A DNA stretch of 64,000 nt from Methanococcoides methylutens (lineage in GTDB: Archaea; Halobacteriota; Methanosarcinia; Methanosarcinales; Methanosarcinaceae), in assembly GCF_000765475.1 (NCBI RefSeq), contig NZ_JRHO01000014.1:279574-343573 (forward strand), written 5' to 3'. The notes below the pieces were generated by a model. The model made no database searches and was not told where the DNA came from. It saw only the letters and a list, made by a program, of their open reading frames with translations. How positions within the stretch are numbered: position 1 is the stretch's first letter; each line of letters begins with the position of its first letter. The translations under genes and the position numbers were made by a program. This document shows positions 27,981 to 31,041 of the stretch, piece by piece.

Positions 27981-29900
27981 TCATCGCCCCATTGGAATTG
28001 TAAATGTGAACTTGCTACCTTTGCCCGGTTCACTCTCGACCCAGACATCGCCGCTATGCATTTTAACATATTCCTTAACAAGCATGAGACCAAGTCCGGT
28101 ACCACCATATTTACGAGTAGTTGACCCATCTAACTGCACAAAGGGCTTGAATATAGTTTCCAAATCCCCTTTTGAGATACCAATACCAGTATCAGTAATT
28201 GATATTTGTACATGATCTGTTTTTCGGACAGCATTGATAGTCACCATCCCACCAGTCGGTGTAAACTTAATGGCATTATCTACAAGAGCAGAAAGGATCT
28301 CTTTGACCTTGAACGCATCAGCAACAACCTCCGCTATCTGTGGGTCAACATGTGCCTCCAATAGTATACCTCCCCTCGATGCCATGTCAGCTTTTGAATC
28401 TTTTACTTCCGCAATGGCATTTTGCAGATCAAAAACATCACGTTTAAGACTCACATTACCAGATTCGATCTTGCACAAATCGAGTATATGATTGATGAAC
28501 TCCAGCAGTTGGACACCATTACGTTTGATATTAGAAGCATATCTTTTCTGCTTCTTGCTAAGCTCACCAGCCATTTCATTGGCCAGGATGTCTGAAAATC
28601 CAATGATAGGATTAAGAGGTGTTCTTAGTTCATGACTAATATTCGCAATAAATTCTGATTTTGCCTTATTTGCATCTTCAGCTGCAATCTTAGCATTTAT
28701 CAATGCCTCCTTTGCTTCCATCCAAATTGTGACGTCCCTGAGAATTGCCATCGTTGCCGGAAAACCCTGATACTGTATAATAGATGCACTTACATTTACA
28801 GGAATAGCAGTCCTATTTTTAGAGATTATATCTACATCATAATGATTTGAAATTCTTTCCCCATTTAATCTTCTCTTATACTTTTCCATTATAAGATCGA
28901 TATATTCAGGTGAAACAAATTCAATAAAACTCTTATCGACTATTGCTTCATAAGAATATCCAGACATTTCCTGCATTGTTTTGTTCGCATATTTGATCGC
29001 ATCACCCTGAAGGATAATTATCCCATCATTACTATTTTCCACGAGACTTGAATACTTTTTCTCACTCTCATACAGTTTTATATCGGCCTTTTTGCGTTCA
29101 GTGATGTCAAGTCCAGTAAAAGTAACTCCTTTTAATAGATCGTCCGGGTCTATAGGTGATGAACTAAGTATTAAGTCAATTATCTTGCCATCTTTTCTCT
29201 TCCATTGAGTTTCTACAGTTCCGATGCCCTGTTTTTGTATCTGGGAATATTTTTCCCTCCCGACATACTCAAATTCATCATCTGTAGGATAGAGTATCCT
29301 TGAACTCTGACCAAGCAATTCATCTCTTGAGTATCCTGTCATTTTACAAATCCGGTCATTAACTTCCCTGAGGATCCGCTCCTGAACAACACCTACACCA
29401 GTAGGTACAGCCCTGAAAATACTATTAAATCGATTTTCCCTTTCGCGGATATGTTCTTCTGCAACTTTGCGATCAGTGATATCAATATGCTGTAAAAGAA
29501 CATTTGAAGGATAAGTTTTCGAAAGTGGTGTGACCTTCAGCAAAAACCAGCATTTTTCATCAGGACTGTGACAGGTGTACTCAATTTTAAAAACATTTTT
29601 TGTCCCATTTATGACATCAATTATACCTTTTGTTGCAGTAGAAACATCAATTGACTAATTACCATTTGGCCCATCGCATACTTTCAAGTAATTAGTGCCT
29701 TCATTGTATTTTACCGGATCAAAACCATTGTCTTTAGCAAACTGTTTCCAACTTTGATTCGTATAAATAAGAAGGCCATCGGGAGAGATGATTGCAATAT
29801 GATCATCCCACATATCAAACAAAGAAGCTGTCTTTAAAATATCTTCAAAACCAGATCTATAAGTGTTAACCCCTGATGAATTATGGTCGTATTTTGTCAT
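27981..29900 (-). CDS. Triple-PAS sensor histidine kinase with in-frame UAG (probable pyrrolysine at codon 82)
   Basis: Read through one TAG (29655-29657), the frame from ATG 29900 to TGA 27981 gives a 639-aa kinase. The first PAS domain (~20-150) spans the TAG: ITSPDGLLIYTN-type residues and NYLKVCDGPNGN lie before it, CHSPDEKCWFLLKVTPLS after it. Methanogen PAS domains have NYL.VC and CHSP.E.RWFL.RVTPL in that order, so both sides belong together. PAS 2 and 3 (~150-270, ~277-395), the His423 box FIANISHELRTPLNP and an ATPase domain follow. GGTGG precedes the ATG. Methanosarcinaceae read UAG as pyrrolysine. A recent nonsense mutation is the alternative. Confidence 0.75.
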
Positions 29901-30192: not shown

Positions 30193-31041
30193 ATGAACAC
30201 GTCACCAAAGATGCCTATAACCGATGAGCACATGCACATCGACCCCCGCGCAAAGGGACTGAAAGCTGTCAAAGAGTTCCAGAATGCAGGGGGAACCCAC
30301 ATCATTCTCGTTACAAAACCCACATGGACCATCGGCGTGGAGGTCACAAGACCGGAGGACTACAGGATCGTCTTCGATGAGACCGTTGACCTTGCCAGAC
30401 AGATCAACGAGACCGGCGTGAAGGCGTTCCCGGTACTTGGTGTACACCCTGCTGAGATCACAAAACTGACCGAACGCATGGAACTTGAAAGGGCTGTTGA
30501 GCTTATGAAGAGTGGTCTCGAGATAGCTGCAAAGTACGTCGATGAAGGCCTTGCCGTGGGACTCAAGAGCGGGCGGCCTCACTACCCCGTTTCAGATGAG
30601 ATATGGGATGCATCCAATGTCATCATGGAACATGGATTTATGCTTGCTAAGGAACAGGACTGTGCGATCCAGTTGCACACAGAGAGTGTCGAGGAACCGG
30701 AACTTATCGATATTACAGAAAGGGCAAAGAGAACAGGCATCCAGCTGAATAAGGTGGTTAAGCATTACGCCCCCCCTCTTGTAAATGTTTGTGAGAAGCT
30801 GGGTATCTTCCCGGGAATACTTGCAGGCAAAGGTGCCATCGAGCAGGCCCTTGAAGAGGGAACACGTTTCATGATGGAGACCGATTACATTGATGATCCT
30901 GAAAGACCGGGGGCTGTACTGGGACCAAAGACGATTCCCCGAAGGACATTGAAGCTTGTGGAATAGCACGGTGAAGAGCCGTTCTGGAAAATTCACAAGG
31001 AAAATGTTGAAGAGGTCTATGAAGTGGAGATCGAGCTATGA
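30193..31041 (+). CDS. TatD-related TIM-barrel metal-dependent hydrolase with in-frame UAG (probable pyrrolysine at codon 258)
   Basis: This is a predicted metallohydrolase of the TatD-related COG1099 group. The first metal site is DEHMHIDP (His13, His15). LGVHPAEI, a LHTES segment, KHYAPP and METDYIDDP supply the others. A TAG stands at 30964-30966. Beyond it the same frame gives 24 more codons, EEPFWKIHKENVEEVYEVEIEL, ending in TGA. WKIHKEN..(K/E)VY is the normal C-terminal end of this family, so the UAG is most likely read as an amino acid (282 aa in all). Substrate unknown. It converges on the superoxide reductase gene. Confidence 0.75.

Follow-up and report, generated by a model that had tools for sequence, protein, structure and literature searches.

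The in-frame TAG at positions 30964..30966 (+ strand) of the window, i.e. the whole 64,000-nucleotide stretch analysed here (contig C14, 279574-343573, of a 2.5 Mb Methanococcoides genome), is very probably a sense codon for pyrrolysine, which would be read through to the TGA at 31039 and would have been acquired neutrally; this reading is based on comparative sequence analysis. The codon is located in a gene for a TatD-family TIM-barrel metal-dependent hydrolase (30193..31041, + strand), which has 282 codons when UAG is taken as sense. The protein was matched by the Pfam profile TatD_DNase (PF01026) over residues 10-276 (E=3.8e-28, 99 bits, cut-off 27), and its COG1099 type is a label taken over from the initial annotation. 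The TAG is codon 258 and the sole interruption of the frame, and the gene carries no other lesion. As described in the initial annotation, the frame continues after the TAG for 24 codons (30967..31038, +), reading HGEEPFWKIHKENVEEVYEVEIEL, and is terminated by the TGA at 31039..31041 (+). The tail contains no in-frame Met for re-initiation, and no recoding-type RNA hairpin was found 3' of the UAG (downstream structure z = -1.1).

Of 60 relatives searched, 56 gave a match, nearly always at full length, and an orthologue was present in most of the Methanosarcinales genomes searched; a stop within a full-length orthologue was found in the window's genome only. One family fragment in another genome also contained a TAG. 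The family was read at 110 loci, corresponding to 95 distinct proteins, some of the loci being the same gene taken twice. At 109 of these loci position 258 is a sense codon and the frame continues into the tail, and none of the 109 homologues ends after residue 257. The earlier claim that the TGA is the true end of the gene was upheld. The same UAG was not found in any of the 109 other loci. The comparison of position 258 among homologues that the initial annotation had proposed gave Glu (38), Thr (16), Arg (13), Lys (9), Gln (7), Ile (5), Val (3), Met (2), Asp (1) and UAG (1) in this set of 110 loci and 95 distinct proteins. With nine residue types, the position ranks 10 of 277 columns by entropy and is among the most variable of the family. 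As judged from this variability, and not from solvent exposure, site 258 is a substitution-tolerant site and not a conserved functional one. In all 10 congeners the codon is GAG or GAA (Glu), and the UAG thus arose by one lineage-specific change, most simply GAG to TAG (G to T).

The protein was modelled with confidence by AlphaFold (pLDDT 92.8). In the model, residue 258 lies where the penultimate helix (247-259) ends, and the last helix (262-276) is formed by the tail, in line with the earlier description of the tail as the final helix of the fold. Six residues of the tail (F264, H268, K269, N271, E273 and Y276) were invariant among 33 diverse homologues. The fold matches of the model in the PDB were TatD structures (TM about 0.6-0.65) and phosphotriesterase-like lactonases, and no close PDB relative by sequence was found. 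The invariant His, Asp and Glu residues of the family are D11, H13, H15, H85, E164, H191 and D231, which by analogy with TatD enzymes are probably metal ligands. The TatD-family protein resembles the TatD-related DNases and other TIM barrels of the amidohydrolase superfamily (PF01026) in its fold and metal-site residues, but it belongs to a distinct archaeal subfamily without a solved relative by sequence.

Relative to G005, the nearest congener, 8 synonymous and 0 non-synonymous changes were counted in the tail, where synonymous sites number about 13 and non-synonymous sites about 59. These counts show constraint on the tail within the genus Methanococcoides, and together with the sense codon at 109 of 110 loci they indicate that the intact frame is more than chance. 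The low non-synonymous count mostly reflects selection before the UAG mutation. Only one change in the tail, a synonymous one, is unique to the window's lineage, where about 0.5 non-synonymous changes would be expected under normal constraint, and this is too little change to tell relaxed from continued constraint after the UAG arose. Since a very young mutation would leave the same picture in the tail, evidence for decoding has to come from elsewhere in the genome.

According to published work (PMC3941956), Methanosarcinaceae avoid UAG as a stop codon. To examine UAG usage here, a 680 kb sample of contig C14, covering about a quarter of the genome, was compared with two closely related congeners, and frames were accepted as coding when at least 55% of the differences fell at third positions. 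When UAG was read through, 429 conserved coding frames were obtained, of which 240 end in TGA and 189 in TAA; only one (C14:249743-250186) looks UAG-terminated, its stop lying just before the read-through end. In a separate count over 380 kb, in which UAG was treated as a stop, 150 frames ended in TGA, 140 in TAA and 6 in TAG, and these 6 include the TatD gene, a CcmF-like gene and several apparent antisense frames. TAG makes up 18% of the stop trinucleotides in the sequence, in contrast to its rare use as a terminator. The count of internal stops was matched to the coding frame; because some rows are still antisense or upstream-of-start frames, real genes were judged by protein similarity. 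One frame with two UAGs (C14:211650-212838) was dropped, because it lies in a stretch classed as antisense to a coding gene. A conserved frame interrupted by TAA (L205, contig C14 position 742336) was also observed, and it is possibly a true pseudogene.

Several conserved genes contain an internal UAG. The second UAG gene of the window, about 1.3 kb from the TatD gene, proved real: it encodes a PAS/HisKA/HATPase sensor kinase (27981..29900, - strand), with the in-frame TAG at codon 82 (29655..29657, -), a position held by Cys, Tyr, Asn or His in congeners. No other conserved gene with a UAG end or an internal UAG was found in the 64-kb window, as had been stated before. The closeness of the two genes, which had been offered as support for read-through, is weak evidence and adds little. 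Outside the window, a second PAS/HisKA_2 sensor kinase (L208:6013-8466, -) has a UAG at a site occupied by Glu in the congener G001, which would be a second lineage-specific Glu-to-UAG change. A QueG/reductive-dehalogenase-like iron-sulfur protein (L139:12668-13477, -) carries an in-frame UAG common to the window's genome and G001, and the internal UAG of the CcmF-like gene is identical in G001 and G005. Furthermore, the chorismate synthase gene of the sister species G005 has an internal UAG 58 codons from its end, where the window's genome encodes Gln. Chorismate synthase supplies the precursor from which the aromatic amino acids are built, and its loss would therefore be costly.

The machinery for pyrrolysine is complete in this genome. 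On contig C9, tRNA-Pyl(CUA), PylS, PylB, PylC and PylD are encoded in a row; PylB, PylC and PylD were assigned by position and sequence, and PylB also by profile. Genes for the dimethylamine (mtbB) and trimethylamine (mttB) methyltransferases are present with their usual UAG. An MtmB homologue without UAG is encoded at C5:118412-119761, and MtmB pieces were found at or near the ends of contigs C1, C3 and C10, probably representing a repeat that broke the assembly. The features expected of a pyrrolysine protein gene were thus found together: tRNA-Pyl(CUA) with PylS and PylBCD, homologous coding sequence on both sides of the UAG, and a stop downstream in all homologues. One full-length release factor, aRF1, is also encoded, so termination competes at UAG.

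On this basis, the following sequence of events is proposed. The GAG codon for Glu258 of a core TatD-family hydrolase gene would have changed to TAG in the lineage of one species. Pyl-tRNA(CUA) would read this codon, and pyrrolysine would be inserted at a variable site close to where the penultimate helix ends, presumably with sufficient efficiency for ribosomes to complete the conserved last helix and finish at TGA 31039. Pyrrolysine at 258 would probably have no catalytic role. Two things would make the mutation tolerable: the site takes many different residues, and this organism hardly uses UAG as a stop. The initial annotation had favoured read-through over chance mutation. Read-through is likely, but the contrast is a false one, because the UAG did arise by a single G to T change, a lineage-specific mutation which would have been tolerated through UAG decoding.

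The main competing explanation, that the UAG is a recent nonsense mutation at which translation stops and leaves a non-functional or impaired truncated protein, is unlikely. It is consistent with the restriction of the UAG to the window's genome, with the full-length aRF1 and with the scarcity of lineage-specific change, which is too little to show selection after the mutation. These points are outweighed by the genome-wide pattern, which is the strong argument for read-through: UAG is almost never used as a terminator and yet is found inside several conserved genes, and also in the chorismate synthase of G005. Moreover, the TatD gene is otherwise intact and is kept by almost all relatives, and over the 680 kb a comparable in-frame TAA was seen only once, and a clear interruption by TGA not at all, when both sides were required to be conserved and in the coding frame. 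A sequencing or assembly error, with G read as T, is extremely unlikely; the change is a single base in a single assembly, but the contig is 1.0 Mb long, the genome is 99.87% complete, the gene is free of further lesions, and the same pattern is met again in other genes, with some of the UAGs common to related species.

Decoding could also be partial or conditional and carry a physiological meaning, in which case forms of 257 and 282 residues would be made in a ratio set by the supply of Pyl-tRNA, as during growth on methylamines. In an amber reporter in Methanosarcina acetivorans, the introduced codon was read as pyrrolysine at 20-30% apparent efficiency with termination in most cases, and both a truncated and a Pyl-containing product were obtained (PMC2933860); the UAGs in two sensor kinases of the genome would also fit such a scheme. 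However, the UAG is species-specific and stands at a variable site, which speaks against a conserved regulation, and a truncated form, having lost the invariant residues in the last helix, would probably be of little use, so that this explanation is very improbable. Neutral acquisition of a pyrrolysine codon that is read through is therefore preferred.

Among the known systems, the MtmB, MtbB and MttB methyltransferases share with the TatD gene an in-frame UAG and decoding by pylTSBCD, but in those enzymes pyrrolysine is catalytic and conserved, whereas residue 258 is among the most variable of the TatD family. A further counterpart is the pyrrolysine of ThgL, the tRNA-His guanylyltransferase of M. 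acetivorans, whose neutral evolution was proposed by Heinemann et al. 2009, as cited in two later papers (PMC3639795, PMC2933860). In both cases the host is a Pyl-encoding methanogen and the UAG, which would be a tolerated mutation, stands in a gene that has nothing to do with methylamines; the TatD UAG likewise occurs at a non-conserved site in one lineage. The protein, the genus and the site are different, and pyrrolysine is only predicted in the TatD-family hydrolase, while for ThgL its incorporation was reportedly examined experimentally. An archaeal genetic code in which all TAG codons mean pyrrolysine is also said to have been described by Kivenson et al. (Science 2025). The genome studied here is alike in that UAG is nearly absent as a terminator and is spread over ordinary genes; it differs in that about a quarter of the genome was covered, by comparison, and that pylB appears to keep a UAG stop. 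No mention of this TatD family was found in the main text of Chaudhuri and Yeates 2005 or of Theil Have 2013. The TatD UAG is most likely a species-specific instance of a known phenomenon. It offers a clean example of how a single base substitution could bring pyrrolysine into an ordinary enzyme, at a position that accommodates nine other residues, and the Glu-bearing congeners and the UAG-bearing species form a natural before-and-after pair for measuring the cost or benefit of pyrrolysine. Standard annotation would miscall the gene as truncated or as a pseudogene.

The ending of pylB was also compared. Among the 23 pylB-bearing genomes of Methanosarcinaceae that were examined, 19 have UAG as the stop of this gene, and every one of the 11 Methanococcoides genomes is among them (L226-L248); in the window's own genome this UAG is at L136:9457-9459 on contig C9. 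In most of those genomes the UAG lies one base before the apparent start of pylC. This ending is striking in Methanococcoides, which otherwise avoids UAG stops; the avoidance was measured in the Methanococcoides sample, while the pylB count also spans other genera. A description of the pylB UAG ending was not found in a narrow search of the literature. The overlap with pylC may by itself constrain the sequence at the end of pylB, or the UAG could serve as a feedback device operated by Pyl-tRNA. A broader and rather doubtful picture can be drawn from these observations, in which UAG in Methanococcoides has in effect become a pyrrolysine sense codon and pyrrolysine drifts into housekeeping proteins (the TatD-family hydrolase, the sensor kinases and the chorismate synthase of the sister species), while the conserved UAG is retained as the pylB terminator before pylC, a possible feedback switch in which abundant Pyl-tRNA would read through this stop and disturb the translation of pylC.
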